Source: Neolewinella lacunae
GTDB lineage: Bacteria > Bacteroidota > Bacteroidia > Chitinophagales > Saprospiraceae
Length of the DNA: 64,000 bases
NCBI RefSeq assembly: GCF_014349155.1
Contig: NZ_JACSIT010000067.1
Span: 62,001 to 126,000 of the forward strand
Reading direction: 5' to 3'
In this document: piece after piece, positions 5,437 to 52,954 of the stretch
Numbering within the stretch: position 1 is the stretch's first letter
How the letters are laid out: every line of letters starts with the position of its first letter
The notes under the pieces: model-generated
Seen by the model: only the letters and a program-made list of their open reading frames with translations
Told to the model about the DNA's origin: nothing
The model's database searches: none
Made by a program: the position numbers and the translations under genes

Positions 5437-5483
5437 GGGCGCGGCCGCAGGTGCCGTGGACAGGATAATGAGCAATGGAAGGG
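5437..5483 (+). repeat. Dispersed NotI-core repeat, copy 1
   Basis: Exact core GGGCGCGGCCGCAGGTGCC at 5437-5455, followed by the family's purine-rich tail (AATGAGCAATGGAAGGGCCC at about 5467-5486). It lies in the gap between the PorE-like gene and prmA, upstream of the prmA promoter. Confidence 0.85.
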
Positions 5484-13920: not shown

Positions 13921-14580
13921 TTAGCGGCTGCCGTATTCCGCCACCCAGGCGGTGTAATCAAAGATGGCTTCGCGACGCAATACCTGTTCTTTTTCCACAC
14001 GCCAGCCCCGGGATTGGAGGGCGGCGCGGTAGGCAGCGGGGCCGTGCTGCTGGGGATGGAGCAGGTCGCCCGGCAAAAGACGGAAAATAGGTTCGAGCCA
14101 GGGGTGGCGGTGCACGTCGCTGGTCAGCAGCAGGCGCGTCCCCGTGTGGGCTACGGCGGTGAGTTGGTCGAGGGCGAGGGCCCAGTTGGCCACGTGGTTG
14201 ATGGCGTTGAAACAGTAAATGGCTTCGAAGGGCCCGCCGGGAATAGGCTGTTCGAGGGTTTGGACGGCGAAGTCGGTTTCCGGATACCGGCTGCGGGCGA
14301 AGATGCTCAGGTCGGTCTCGTAGCGGAGCAGGAGGGGATCGAGGGCCGTCACCCGCTCCGTACCGTGGAGGGTGATGAAGATGCCGGCCGGTCCGCAGCC
14401 CGCGTCGAGTACTTTCCGGTGGGGGATTACGGTCCAACCCAGCTCGTCAAGTGTACGCTGCCAGTAGGCACTTTTCTCGGCCAGGTACTGTTCCGGGGGC
14501 TTCGCACGCAGGTAACGTCGCCACCATCGGCGTTCGAGGTACTGGGCTACCCGCCAGCGCAGGGAGGAGGTCTTTTGCAT
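13921..14580 (-). CDS. Class I SAM-dependent methyltransferase
   Basis: A 219-residue soluble protein with a Rossmann-type methyltransferase core. Motif I is VLDAGCGPAGIF (near 57-68), the acidic post-I residue lies in VTALDPL, and motif IV-like FEAIYCFNAINHV follows. It fits the Methyltransf_11 type, which modifies small molecules or lipids; the substrate cannot be told. The N-terminus is rich in Arg and Trp (RRWWRRYLRAK), suggesting membrane or nucleic-acid contact. The -7 box at 14588-14595 is so close to the ATG that the transcript is probably leaderless. It is convergent with dapF. Confidence 0.75.
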   Translation of the reverse strand: MQKTSSLRWRVAQYLERRWWRRYLRAKPPEQYLAEKSAYWQRTLDELGWTVIPHRKVLDAGCGPAGIFITLHGTERVTALDPLLLRYETDLSIFARSRYPETDFAVQTLEQPIPGGPFEAIYCFNAINHVANWALALDQLTAVAHTGTRLLLTSDVHRHPWLEPIFRLLPGDLLHPQQHGPAAYRAALQSRGWRVEKEQVLRREAIFDYTAWVAEYGSR

Positions 14581-14587
14581 TGCCGGA

Positions 14588-14595
14588 CGAAGGTA
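14588..14595 (-). promoter_or_regulatory. -7 box for the methyltransferase gene
   Basis: Minus-strand TACCTTCG ending 7 bp before the ATG at 14580, implying a transcript that starts at or next to the start codon. Just upstream is a purine-rich stretch with GATTGAAG repeated three times (14621-14645). Confidence 0.5.
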
Positions 14596-14707
14596 AGGGG
14601 GAAGGGATTAAGGGATGAAAGGATTGAAGGATTGAAGGATTGAATAAGCTGCCGCACCGGGATACAGACTTAGCTGAGCAGCCTCCGACAGAAAACGGCC
14701 TTAAGTG

Positions 14708-14954
14708 TAGGCTGTCTAATCTAATGGGTTTAACCCGTACGCGCTTTAGGGGCCTGGACCGCCTAGGTTGAGACCCTCTGGGTCGATCCAGCTAATCACG
14801 GTGCCCCCCTGGGTTGAGACCCTCTGTGGGTCGATCCAGCTAAGTAAAATGGCGTATTCTCCTACGGCCCAAAGGGTCTCGACCTATTAAGCGCTTGAGC
14901 CTCCCCGGTTGGCTAAAGTGAGTACGGCTGTGGCCTGGCTAATTAGACAGCCTA
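14708..14954. mobile_element. MITE-like element, 247 bp, with flanking target duplication
   Basis: The ends are inverted copies of TAGGCTGTCTAAT (14708-14720 and 14942-14954). Immediately outside lie GCCTTAAGTG (14698-14707) and GCCTTCAGTG (14955-14964), a 10-bp direct repeat with one mismatch, as expected for a target-site duplication. The interior is non-coding. It holds two near-identical copies of a GAGACCCTCTG...GGGTCGATCCAGCTAA unit (about 14770 and 14815) and an inverted GGGTCTCGACC (about 14874), so it can fold. No transposase is present; it would need one in trans. Confidence 0.75.
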
Positions 14955-14984
14955 GCCTTCAGTGCACCCCAAACGCCGCCGTCG

Positions 14985-14992
14985 TATCTTCG
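14985..14992 (+). promoter_or_regulatory. -7 box for the DUF2027-Smr gene
   Basis: TATCTTCG ending 4 bp before the ATG at 14997, which suggests a leaderless mRNA. It lies just outside the right end of the MITE-like element. Confidence 0.5.
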
Positions 14993-14996
14993 CGGC

Positions 14997-16022
14997 ATGG
15001 CATTTATCATTAATCAGCGCGTACGGATGAAGCGTACGCAAAACGTAGGAACGGTAACCGCAATATTGCCCGGTGGCGTAGTCCAGGTACGTTGGGACGG
15101 CGGCAGTGGGCTGCTGCCCGTGCCAGAAGAGGTATTGGAGGCGGTAGGGGCCGCTCCCCCACCCCCCGCCGCACTGGCCAAGCCTATTCCCGTACCCCAG
15201 CAGGCCAATCAGGGTCCCGAAGAATACGAAGGTGTTCGCCTGGCTTTCGATCCGCAACTGAACAATGAGGCGGAGCCCGTCGCCTTCGAGGTGTACCTGC
15301 TCAATGGTACGCCCCACAAAATCCTGTACGAACTCAAGGTATTAACCGGAAGCAACCGCCGTTGGAGCAAAGCGGGACAACTCGAAGCGGGGGGCAAAAA
15401 ACGCCTGGACGCCGTCGCCTACGGCTGGCTGAATGAAAAATTGAGCTGCGAGCTAGACTGCCGGCCCATCCTCCCCGAAGGACCTGGGCCACGGCATTTC
15501 CAACAGCTCCGGATCAAGGGACAGCAGTTTTTCGATAAGCTCGAGGACGTCCCCGAACTTTACCGGGACGCCCACCTCTACGTCGTCTTCCCCTCGCTTG
15601 ATACGACGGCCACCGCACCTGCGTCAGCGCCCCAGCTCAACACCGGCTCGCTCAGGGCCATCACCCAGCAGGAGCTCAACAAGAAAAGCGTCGCGCCAGC
15701 CAAAAACGTGACCAACTTCGATCTGGCCGAGAAGCTGGAGTTCGAAACCGAGATCGATCTCCACCTGCCTGCGCTGGTGAAAGACCCCGCTGCAGTGCCC
15801 AAACACCTGGTTCTCCAAACCCAGTTGAAACACCTCGACGCCTACCTCGAGCGGGCCGTCCGGCTGGGTGTAGACCGGGTATTCATCATCCACGGCGTCG
15901 GCAGCGGAGCCCTGAAACGCGCCATCCACTCCCGCCTCCACGGCATGCGCTATGTCCGCGATTTCCGCAACGAATTTCACCCGAAATACGGCACCGGGGC
16001 CACCGAGGTGATTTTTGATTAA
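14997..16022 (+). CDS. DUF2027 protein with C-terminal Smr domain
   Basis: A 341-residue Bacteroidota-type protein. The N-terminus is an SH3/KOW-like fold (RVRMKRTQNVGTVTAILPGG), followed by a Pro/Ala linker and the DUF2027 beta-domain. The C-terminus is a Smr (small MutS-related) domain: EIDLHLPAL near 255, LDAYLERAVRLG, and the conserved HGVGSGALK near 300. Smr domains in other proteins bind or cleave branched DNA or RNA; in MutS2 they act in recombination suppression or ribosome rescue. The role of the stand-alone DUF2027-Smr protein is not known to me. The gene starts right after the MITE-like element and appears to be transcribed from its own promoter. Confidence 0.88.
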   Translation: MAFIINQRVRMKRTQNVGTVTAILPGGVVQVRWDGGSGLLPVPEEVLEAVGAAPPPPAALAKPIPVPQQANQGPEEYEGVRLAFDPQLNNEAEPVAFEVYLLNGTPHKILYELKVLTGSNRRWSKAGQLEAGGKKRLDAVAYGWLNEKLSCELDCRPILPEGPGPRHFQQLRIKGQQFFDKLEDVPELYRDAHLYVVFPSLDTTATAPASAPQLNTGSLRAITQQELNKKSVAPAKNVTNFDLAEKLEFETEIDLHLPALVKDPAAVPKHLVLQTQLKHLDAYLERAVRLGVDRVFIIHGVGSGALKRAIHSRLHGMRYVRDFRNEFHPKYGTGATEVIFD

Positions 16023-40456: not shown

Positions 40457-42601
40457 ATGCATATGCCTACTTTTCAAAAAATTGCCTGTATGGGCATCCT
40501 CTTGGCCAGCCTGGTCTTTAGCGCCTGCGGGGATGCCCCGGACGGCTCCGTTGCGGAGCAGAACCCCGCAGTTGAACAAGGCAAGGCAGCCGAACCTCGG
40601 TATTCGCTCGGGCAGTGGTCTTTTCACCGCGAGCACTTCTCGGGGGACATGAACACCTTCGACTTCATCGCCGCGGCCGACGAGATGGGTTTTGCGGGCG
40701 TGGAGTACGTCAGCCAGTTTTTCCAGGACCAGGTTGAAAATACGGCCTTTCTGGATAGTCTGCGCCAGGCCTCTGAGGCGGCGGGCCTGGAAAATGTGAT
40801 GATCCTGGTAGATGGGGCTGGCAATTTAGGTAGTTCGGATCCTGCTGAACGGAGTCGTTCCATTGCCGTACACCTGCAGTGGGCGCGCGCGGCGCAGCGG
40901 ATTGGGAGTCCGGCCATCCGCGTCAATGCCCACGGCGATGGCACTCCTGCGGAGATCAAGGCCGCCTGCCTGGAGTCCATCGCTCAACTGGCACGCGAAG
41001 CCCGCGAGTTGGGCATCCGGATTGTCATTGAGAACCACGGCGGCATTTCCAACAACGGTGCCTGGCTGGCCGACCTCGTGGAGCAATTGAAAGACTACGA
41101 AGTGGGCAGTTTGGCCGACTTCGACAACTGGTGCATCGCCCGGGAAAACGGGGAACTCTGGGGAGCGCCCTGCGTGGAGGAATACAACCGCTACCAGGGA
41201 ATGCTGGAACTCATTCCCTACGCGGCGTCCGTGAGCGTAAAAGCCTTCAACTTCGACGCGGCGGGCGAGGAGCCGAGCATGGACTACGCCGTACTTTTCG
41301 ACATCCTGCACGCCCGGGACTACAATGGCTGGCTGGGCATAGAATACGAGGGCGATAAACTGCCCTCCCGAGAAGGCATTGAAAACACCTTGGCGCTGGC
41401 GAAAAAACACTGGCCTCGGCAGCCCGTCATCACGCCAGCGGCGGTGGCGCGTTTGGACAGTACGCTGGAAGCCTTCGTTGCACCCGGCGGCGTAGCGGGC
41501 ATCTCGGCGTTGATCTACGAAAAAGGCGAAGAGGTTTACTTCAAGGCCGCGGGCGACGCCGATCGGGCGGGCAAGGTGCCGATGGCGCGCAACACCATTG
41601 CCCAGATTTATTCCATGACCAAGCCACTGACGGCTACGGCGCTGATGCAGTTGTACGAGGCGGGTAAATTCTCCCTGGACGACCCCGTTGCGCAGTACAT
41701 CCCCGAGCTGGCCAACGTGCGGGTGTACGCCGGAGTAGACGCGGCGGGAAAGGTAAAGACCGAAGCGCCCAAGCGGCCGATGACCATCCGCGATCTCACC
41801 CGCCACACGGCAGGTTTTTACAACGGTGGCGACCACCCGGCGCTGAAGCCCATCTGGGAGGCGGCCGACACGCGGAATTATACGCATACCCTGACGGGGC
41901 TGGCGGAAAAACTGGCGAGCATCCCGTTGCTTTTCCATCCCGGGGAACAGTGGGAATACGGTCCTGCGGTAGACGTGCAGGCGTTGCTGGTAGAGCGGAT
42001 CGCGGGCGTACCGTTTGACGAATACCTCCGCACCAAAGTCCTGGATCCGCTGGGGATGCAAGAAACCCGCTACTTCGTGCCGGAGGAAGACCGCGCCAGA
42101 ATGTCCTCCGCCTACCAGCGCGCCGCCGATGGCACTTTGGTGCAGATGCCCGACGCGGAGGCCCATGCCTTTAACATCAATGCACAGGTTTTCACGCCCG
42201 GAGGTTTTGGCCTGACGTCTACGCTCGACGATTACATGACCTTTGCACGGATGTTGGTTAACGGCGGTTCGCTCAACGGTAAGCAAATTCTTAAGCCGGA
42301 GACGGTTCAGTTGATGGCCACCAACCATCTGGCCGATTCCGTCACCCAGCGCATCTGGCTGCCCAGCAAAGGACAAGTGGGCTTTGGTATCGACTTTGCC
42401 GTGCGGATGCGTCCGCCGGTTGATGCACAGGAAAACCCCGGCAGCGTAGGCGAATTTTTCTGGGACGGTGCCGCCAGTACCCTGTTCTGGGTAGACCCCG
42501 CCAACGACCTCACGGCCGTTCTCTTTGTCCAGCTTTTCCCCTACGACCAGATTGGGCTGCACCGGGGGTTTCGGGCGGCGGTTTATGGGGCCAATGAGTG
42601 A
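40457..42601 (+). CDS. Sugar-isomerase-like TIM barrel fused to beta-lactamase-family serine hydrolase (lipoprotein)
   Basis: A 714-residue lipoprotein (signal peptide about 1-23, lipobox FSAC). Residues about 45-335 form an AP-endonuclease-2/xylose-isomerase-like TIM barrel with likely metal ligands in IVIENHGG, LADFDNW and GIEYEGD. Residues about 345-712 form a class C beta-lactamase/esterase domain: the nucleophile S386 and K389 in YSMTK, Y501 in WEYGPAVDV, and the late GGFGLTSTLDDY. Each half is well known alone; the fusion is not one I recall. Both should work outside the inner membrane, perhaps an isomerase/epimerase and a lactone or ester hydrolase acting in sequence. It is in an operon with the regulator (21-bp gap). 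The stop codon lies inside a short repeat. Confidence 0.85.
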   Translation: MHMPTFQKIACMGILLASLVFSACGDAPDGSVAEQNPAVEQGKAAEPRYSLGQWSFHREHFSGDMNTFDFIAAADEMGFAGVEYVSQFFQDQVENTAFLDSLRQASEAAGLENVMILVDGAGNLGSSDPAERSRSIAVHLQWARAAQRIGSPAIRVNAHGDGTPAEIKAACLESIAQLAREARELGIRIVIENHGGISNNGAWLADLVEQLKDYEVGSLADFDNWCIARENGELWGAPCVEEYNRYQGMLELIPYAASVSVKAFNFDAAGEEPSMDYAVLFDILHARDYNGWLGIEYEGDKLPSREGIENTLALAKKHWPRQPVITPAAVARLDSTLEAFVAPGGVAGISALIYEKGEEVYFKAAGDADRAGKVPMARNTIAQIYSMTKPLTATALMQLYEAGKFSLDDPVAQYIPELANVRVYAGVDAAGKVKTEAPKRPMTIRDLTRHTAGFYNGGDHPALKPIWEAADTRNYTHTLTGLAEKLASIPLLFHPGEQWEYGPAVDVQALLVERIAGVPFDEYLRTKVLDPLGMQETRYFVPEEDRARMSSAYQRAADGTLVQMPDAEAHAFNINAQVFTPGGFGLTSTLDDYMTFARMLVNGGSLNGKQILKPETVQLMATNHLADSVTQRIWLPSKGQVGFGIDFAVRMRPPVDAQENPGSVGEFFWDGAASTLFWVDPANDLTAVLFVQLFPYDQIGLHRGFRAAVYGANE

Positions 42602-42841
42602 ATGCGTGAATGGGGCCAATGAGTGAATGCGCGAATGCGTGAATGGGCTACCGCACGGGACAGACGTGGCATTCATTTATTCATTTATTCATTCACGCAT
42701 TCACTCATTCACGCATTCACGCATTCACTCATTCACGCATTAGCTACGCTGCTGCCTACGGCGGTCAATTATTCAATTATTCACTCACAGCACCCCACGG
42801 CGGTCATTCACACATTCGCACATTCACGCATTCACTCACTG
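42587..42841. repeat. Tandem and inverted repeat tract after the fusion gene
   Basis: GGGGCCAATGAGTGAATGCG occurs twice (42587-42606 and 42612-42631). AATGAGTGAATGCGTGAATG (42594-42613) is exactly inverted at 42690-42709 in a run of CATTCACG/CATTCACT units (42670-42740), and similar units recur to about 42840. The tract can form a long hairpin and fills the gap before the esterase gene. It is not a CRISPR array because the units are 8-12 bp and unspaced. Confidence 0.8.
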
Positions 42842-52904: not shown

Positions 52905-52954
52905 CAGGCCCCTCCCCCGCTCCTCAAACGTTCCCGGCACCTGCGGCCGCGCCC
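52905..52954 (-). repeat. Dispersed NotI-core repeat, copy 8 (minus orientation)
   Basis: Exact core on the minus strand at 52936-52954 with the full tail GGGAACGTTTGAGGAGCGG (minus strand, 52918-52936). The stretch after the core on the plus side (CTATGAACTATTGACTAC) resembles the inverted repeat in front of dapF. It lies 48 bp upstream of gyrA. Confidence 0.85.

Follow-up and report, generated by a model that had tools for sequence, protein, structure and literature searches.

An inverted-repeat element between a methyltransferase and an Smr gene

We analysed a stretch of 64,000 nucleotides of Neolewinella lacunae DNA (the window), to whose positions the coordinates given without a contig or locus refer. 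In this window a methyltransferase gene on the reverse strand (13921-14580, PF13489) and an Smr-domain gene on the forward strand (14997-16022, PF01713) diverge from a gap of 416 bp. The right-hand gene had been described as DUF2027-Smr: its Smr domain was recovered, and DUF2027 gave no match at E<=0.001. The gap contains an element of 247 bp (14708-14954, no strand assigned) with perfect 13-bp inverted ends (13/13), the left terminal inverted repeat being TAGGCTGTCTAAT at 14708-14720 on the forward strand and its partner lying at 14942-14954 on the reverse strand. It is flanked by a 10-bp target duplication, the left copy of which (GCCTTAAGTG, 14698-14707) has the YTAR centre TTAA and the right copy of which (GCCTTCAGTG, 14955-14964) is identical to it at 9/10 positions. 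The original prediction of a 247-bp MITE-like element with inverted ends and a 10-bp, one-mismatch flank repeat was therefore correct to the base. Exact 13-mer inverted pairs with a spacing of 100-2000 bp number 48 in the window, and the MITE pair alone carries a 10-bp flank repeat with at most one mismatch; 50 order-1 Markov simulations produced 164 inverted pairs, 0 of them with such a repeat at <=1 mismatch.

The interior had been called non-coding, with duplicated units, and both statements held. No open reading frame of at least 60 aa lies within 14708-14954, and one spurious frame (14952-15317) touches the last bases of the element. The internal duplication consists of a 22-nt and a 20-nt repeat, 46-48 bp apart, which define unit 1 (14759-14795, forward strand, with the repeat stretches 14759-14780 and 14776-14795) and its duplicate, unit 2 (14805-14843, forward strand). 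The word GGGTCTCGACC, at 14874-14884 on the reverse strand, is the inverted partner of these units in a predicted long imperfect hairpin. The predicted RNA fold of the element reached -114.5 kcal/mol, with 0/200 shuffles as good, and was strong on both strands (z -4.47 and -3.93), giving a long imperfect hairpin either way.

Other repeats were also seen in the window. The word GCGGCCGCAGGTGC is a second, very abundant repeat, present 11 times in the 64 kb: at 5441, 12599, 25236, 29746, 32564, 47440, 51140, 57196 and 61690 on the forward strand and at 52937 and 62898 on the reverse strand. In the sister genome G008 a close form of it is found upstream of the Smr gene, and at 42593-42838 of the window words of the AATGAGTGAATGCGTGAATG type are repeated in both orientations.

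The orthologous gap lacks the element in 14 sister genomes

The Smr gene had a match in 21/21 genomes of the genus, and the divergent methyltransferase-Smr pair was found within the fetched stretch in 15/20 sister genomes, the other five having no methyltransferase in that stretch. The gap could be measured in 14 of them, since the 15th (L165) had a partial Smr match. In these 14 genomes it spans 75-247 bp, compared to 416 bp here, or 159 bp once the element and one copy of the duplication are subtracted. None of the 14 measured gaps contained a pair of MITE ends, and two of them had a single 8-mer at one mismatch. Thus, the comparison with the empty locus that had been proposed shows the element to be missing from all 14 sister genomes with a measurable gap, and in none of these gaps was the same sequence kept as a conserved RNA or regulatory region. 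The insertion is known from Neolewinella lacunae alone and should not be taken for a conserved regulator of the Smr gene. Downstream of the MITE, a TATCTTCG word that we take to resemble the Bacteroidota -7 box is intact at 14985-14992, with 4 bp between it and the start codon.

The element is one of dozens in this genome

We searched the whole genome of the strain (5.8 Mb, 154 contigs) for related sequences. The window element belongs to a family (family A) with 14 near-full copies of 244-247 bp that are pairwise 95.5-100% identical, besides which shorter and rearranged ones occur, and it is one of dozens of MITEs in this genome. By reading, the number of internal units is one in a 199-bp copy (L016, C95:12090-12288), two in the copies of 244-247 bp and more in a 271-bp copy. 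Because it is 95-100% like the other copies, the copy in the window is probably young. Family A had a match (E<=0.001) in 0/20 of the other genus genomes, two of which are 88% and 55% complete. The original reading of a MITE with a target duplication is upheld by these dispersed, near-identical copies with 10-bp duplications of their own, together with the orthologous gap that lacks the element in 14 sister genomes.

In the loci that we read, four non-autonomous families (A to D) share the same terminal bases. Family B elements are 194 bp and longer (L046) and hold CACTAAGG words; family C elements are 199-226 bp long with TAGGCTGTTCC ends; family D elements are 143 bp long with TAGGGTGTGTAATCTGA ends and were found in L169 (two copies), L184, L188, L194 and L199, on contigs C51, C62, C82, C120 and C134. 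The families are also nested in one another: family C elements with TAGGCTGTTCC ends lie within two family A copies, with the duplications GGGTTAAACC and AGATTAGACA, and in L004 a family A element lies inside a family B element with the duplication CCCTTAGTGC, the outer B pair having no duplication. MITE copies were seen at the ends of contigs C66, C86 and C97 and at N runs in L018, L078 and L199. Since the assembly is broken or gapped inside MITE copies, the copy numbers are probably lower bounds.

Target duplications and site preference

The curated set of complete insertions in this genome comprises 38 elements (families A to D plus one parent element), a set chosen for having a duplication, which is 10 bp long in all of them, perfect in 29 and with one mismatch in 9. 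It was obtained from 35 rows by removing C123:4285 (two mismatches) and the overlapping composites C133:40366-40664 and C134:213984-214703, and by adding the 6 family D insertions. Outside the set are end pairs without a duplication, such as L022 and L060 in this genome; L178 and L202 in the sister genome G017 likewise have none. A 141-bp element in G001 has a 9-bp duplication, offset by one base.

The palindromic centre YTAR was present in at least one duplication copy of 30/32 insertions of families other than D, compared to 0.37% of window positions; these insertions are not wholly independent, several of them having landed in the same CACTAAGG-type sequence. The targets of family D differ, with YTAR in 1/6, and by reading 4 of the other 5 insertions of this family have a GGTSRAGACG-like sequence on one strand. 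The insertions show an intergenic bias: an open frame of at least 150 aa spanned 5/14 of the empty sites, compared to 370/400 random window positions.

Elements with matching ends and a transposase

The ends had been expected to identify the parental insertion sequence, and this was borne out indirectly. No IS with exactly TAGGCTGTCTAAT ends was found. The exact TAGGCTGTCTAAT sequence had hits in 14 of 119 other genomes of the family (13 of them single; two in G095, on different contigs), so that no pair was formed. In 11 loci that we read, the longest frames (at most four per locus, of at least 150 aa) included no recognisable transposase. What the ends did lead to is a set of four transposase-bearing elements with related ends, one of them resident in this genome. 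The resident element shares the first 8 bases of the MITE end, and one end of the G008 element is identical to it at 15/17 positions.

The resident element, found via TAGGCTGTTCC, spans 2765 bp (C99:1380-4144, L110) and has the duplication GGTCTAAACC on both sides. It pairs with family C through the TAGGCTGTTCC ends; with family A it has only TAGGCTGT in common, the first 8 bases being exact. An IS4-type IS interrupts its transposase, leaving pieces of 205 and 274 aa, and neither the protein nor the profile search found another copy of this transposase in the genome. The insert encodes a protein of 383 aa that is over the cut-off for PF01609 and, at 134.6 bits, under the cut-off of 152 for NCBIfam IS4_2; read from the sequence, it has CACACCGCTATACATT ends and the 9-bp duplication GTGAATGAT.

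In the genus, TAGGSTGTSTAATCTGA at <=1 mismatch had matches in 7/21 genomes, and end pairs surrounded the transposase in three sister species, G008, G019 and G020 (in G019 with the second end at <=2 mismatches). The G008 element is 2949 bp long (L197, 578-3526), with the duplication GTCTTTATCA, which has no YTAR centre, and the right end TAGGGTGTCTAATCTGA, which is the one identical to the MITE end at 15/17 positions; a second transposase frame, IS256-like by reading, lies between its left end and the transposase. The G019 element (L209, 947-2468; 1522 bp; duplication TGCCTAAACG) surfaced by its ends, not being among the protein matches listed, and was then shown to hold the transposase. The G020 element (L173, 1501-2986; 1486 bp) has a duplication matching at 8/10 positions. 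None of the three is intact (insert and stop; frame break; decay), so that every parent, the split resident copy included, is now defective. By HMM search, pieces of one and the same transposase were recovered from each of the four. Thus, TAGG[C/G]TGT ends and this transposase occur together in four genus genomes, with a perfect 10-bp duplication in three and an 8/10 one in the fourth. In G017 there were 49 end matches, and among the loci opened L181, L183, L187, L191, L195 and L203 are elements of 140-165 bp with YTAR duplications.

We also considered as parent a resident IS with a 547-aa DDE_Tnp_1 transposase, presumably of IS1182 type. It was rejected, as the GAGGCTGTTCC word is internal to the sequence common to the copies shown and not at their end. 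This IS gave 20 matches of equal score (L083-L102), all near contig ends, and in L086 and L101 its copies are directly adjoined by the GCGGCCGCAGGTGC repeat.

A transposase family with DDE, D(2)H and E(6)K signatures

The transposase is a DDE protein of about 480 aa. In 15/15 sequences we found D142, D213, D232-x2-H235, E402 and K409 (L127 numbering), which correspond to the DDE triad, a D(2)H and an E(6)K motif; the D-x2-H follows the second D by 19 residues in 9/15 and by 24 in 6/15. None of the Pfam or NCBIfam cut-offs was reached, the best weak transposase hit being IS5_2 (6.1e-8, 32.5 bits, compared to a cut-off of 140); PHROG gave no match better than E 0.065, and a sequence search of solved structures gave none at E<=1. 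The predicted fold, of low confidence (mean pLDDT 53.2), runs strand-strand-strand-helix-strand-helix-strand, followed by a helical insert and the helix with the E. In Foldseek comparisons with the PDB the first match was Hermes (E 1.8e-3, TM about 0.2), and there was none at E<=0.001. The model suggests an RNase H-like core for the transposase, and no more.

A protein search of 396 genomes of the order gave matches in 9, our own genome included, and a profile search of 395 genomes of the phylum gave matches in 3, including our own genome and one weak match. Scans of GTDB contigs added 2 MAG loci and those of viral contigs 2 loci; three further viral-contig scans gave no additional locus. Ends of the TAGGCTGT type are present at L112, L116, L117, L127 and L128, and TAGGGTGT ends with 9-bp duplications at L131 and L133. 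L112 and L127 have both ends and no direct duplication, L116 and L128 run to the contig edge, L118 has one end only, and at L121 and L132 (the latter a weak match, E 2.6e-5) no ends were found. L115 contains an element of 1485 bp (819-2303) within a second end pair (735-2370), with the duplication GGTTTAGAGA on the outer pair. For L133 and for the element nested in L115, a shift of one base at the end changes the call between 9 and 10 bp. The flanks of L117 (AGACCTCCGAGG / CCTCGGAGGTCT) and of L127 (CCCTATACCC / GGGTATAGGG) are mutually inverted, as if a palindrome had received the insertion; those of L117 additionally form a 9-bp direct repeat with one mismatch.

Relatives were also present in 15 plasmid records (Persicobacter 6, Nostoc 5, Thiodictyon 2, Calothrix 1, Gloeothece 1), of which we opened 11 loci. 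The matching gene was labelled 'hypothetical protein' in 10/11 and no gene was listed in 1/11. TAG[G/C][G/C]TGT ends were found in 9/11 loci and a perfect 9-bp duplication in 7/11, five of them cyanobacterial, one from Thiodictyon and one from Persicobacter. The exceptions are L136, which has other inverted repeats only, L143, which has none, and L135 and L138, which have TAG-type ends without a duplication. In the tree, the cyanobacterial and Thiodictyon sequences group together (100/100), as do the G008 element and the sequences of Saprospiraceae and Bacteroidia MAGs (100/100); the deepest forks are weak.

Discussion

Judged from the sequences compared here, the window element is a MITE, and its ends are very probably recognised in trans by the DDE transposase, of about 480 aa, of an IS of about 1.5 kb with TAGG[C/G]TGT ends. 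This transposase would mobilise the MITE and integrate it, through a stagger of 10 bp, at NNNYTARNNN sites that lie for the most part outside long reading frames, and repair of the gaps would leave the 10-bp duplication. What is moved has no gene in its interior, which is made up of one to three copies of a unit of about 48 bp and would form the predicted long hairpin. As far as present activity can be deduced from the genome, the MITEs may now be stranded because the sole transposase copy found in it is split by another IS.

A true MITE could instead be moved by an unrelated resident transposase, such as that of the 547-aa, the IS4-type or other DDE_Tnp_1 elements. The PF01609 search returned 51 matches in this genome, no transposase was found between exact family A ends, and the ends of the resident ISs were examined only in part. 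However, one end of the 547-aa element reads GGGGCCGTCTAAAAAG, the IS4-type insert differs in both its ends and its 9-bp duplication, and it is the combination of TAGG[C/G]TGT ends and the unnamed transposase that recurs in four genomes of the genus, so we hold this explanation to be improbable. Still harder to credit is that the stretch before the Smr gene is a conserved RNA or a regulatory region and resembles a transposon in looks only. Its position and the strong predicted fold of both strands would suit such a region, but this reading is contradicted: Rfam gave no match for 14400-15200 at E<=1, the 14 measurable gaps are without the element, and the sequence is dispersed at unrelated loci with target duplications.

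It is also conceivable that the MITE has since been co-opted at this site, for instance as a terminator, or as an insulator that separates the methyltransferase gene from the divergent Smr gene. The predicted hairpin and the intact TATCTTCG word downstream would fit such a role, but a copy so similar to the others is probably young, and we regard co-option as unlikely. A MITE mobilised in trans by the TAGG[C/G]TGT-ended IS is therefore the reading that we prefer.

The MITE is ordinary in kind, and its chief interest is the transposase family to which its ends point, which appears to be unnamed. By 'unnamed' we mean by Pfam, NCBIfam, PHROG and the literature covered, which was mostly at the level of abstracts with few subscription papers and in which no description of the family (its MITEs, 10-bp targets or end sequences) was apparent. 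We lean, with some reserve, towards the parents forming a single IS family of Bacteroidota, Cyanobacteriota and Gammaproteobacteria, with a D(2)H and E(6)K DDE transposase, ends of the TAGG[C/G]TGT type and targets that are palindromic. Its branches would differ in the length of the duplication (9 bp on the seven plasmids named above, mostly 10 bp with a YTAR centre in this genus), so that the stagger would have changed within the family. If true, a family with 9- and 10-bp staggers would allow a test of what sets the distance between the two points of strand transfer. Where a transposase has no library name, annotation misses its ISs and MITEs. The intergenic repeat studied here pointed the way to such a family, with members in three phyla, that was 'hypothetical' wherever a gene was listed in the 11 plasmid loci opened.

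ISMae2, of the ISfinder ISNCY group, is a cyanobacterial IS of about 1.4-2.4 kb with a 9-bp duplication. It resembles the present family in size and duplication length. In the literature as far as it was accessible, ISMae2 had a passing mention only, and ISMae24 is a different IS. The likeness to hAT elements is limited to Hermes as first Foldseek match (E 1.8e-3) of a poor model.

The prokaryotic Mutator-like (p-MULT) transposases, as described in the source, combine a DDE triad with C/D(2)H at 11-19 aa after the second D, an 8- or 9-bp duplication and a terminal cytosine on the inverted repeats, and the groups named include IS256, ISH6, ISLre2, TnGBS, ISKra4, ISAzba1 and ISMich2 (PMC3942029). 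As in the p-MULT proteins so described, the D-x2-H lies at 19 residues in 9/15 of our sequences, whereas the 24 residues of the other 6/15 are beyond the 11-19 range; a helical insert before the E helix is likewise predicted, by a weak model. Compared to their 8-9 bp, the duplications are of 9 bp in 7/11 plasmid loci and of 10 bp in the 38 curated insertions, and in contrast to the terminal C of that description our ends start with T under both 9- and 10-bp assignments. Because the ends lack the terminal C and no NCBIfam cut-off was reached, we did not file the family under p-MULT.

For the MITE itself, the nearest case that we saw in print is a P. gingivalis MITE that holds a minisatellite (PMC4596501), likewise a Bacteroidota MITE with internal tandem units. 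The MITE interior described here can also amplify as a minisatellite: at L057 (C121:138849-139151) a tandem array of three units of about 98 bp consists of MITE interior, in a locus in which no MITE ends were found.
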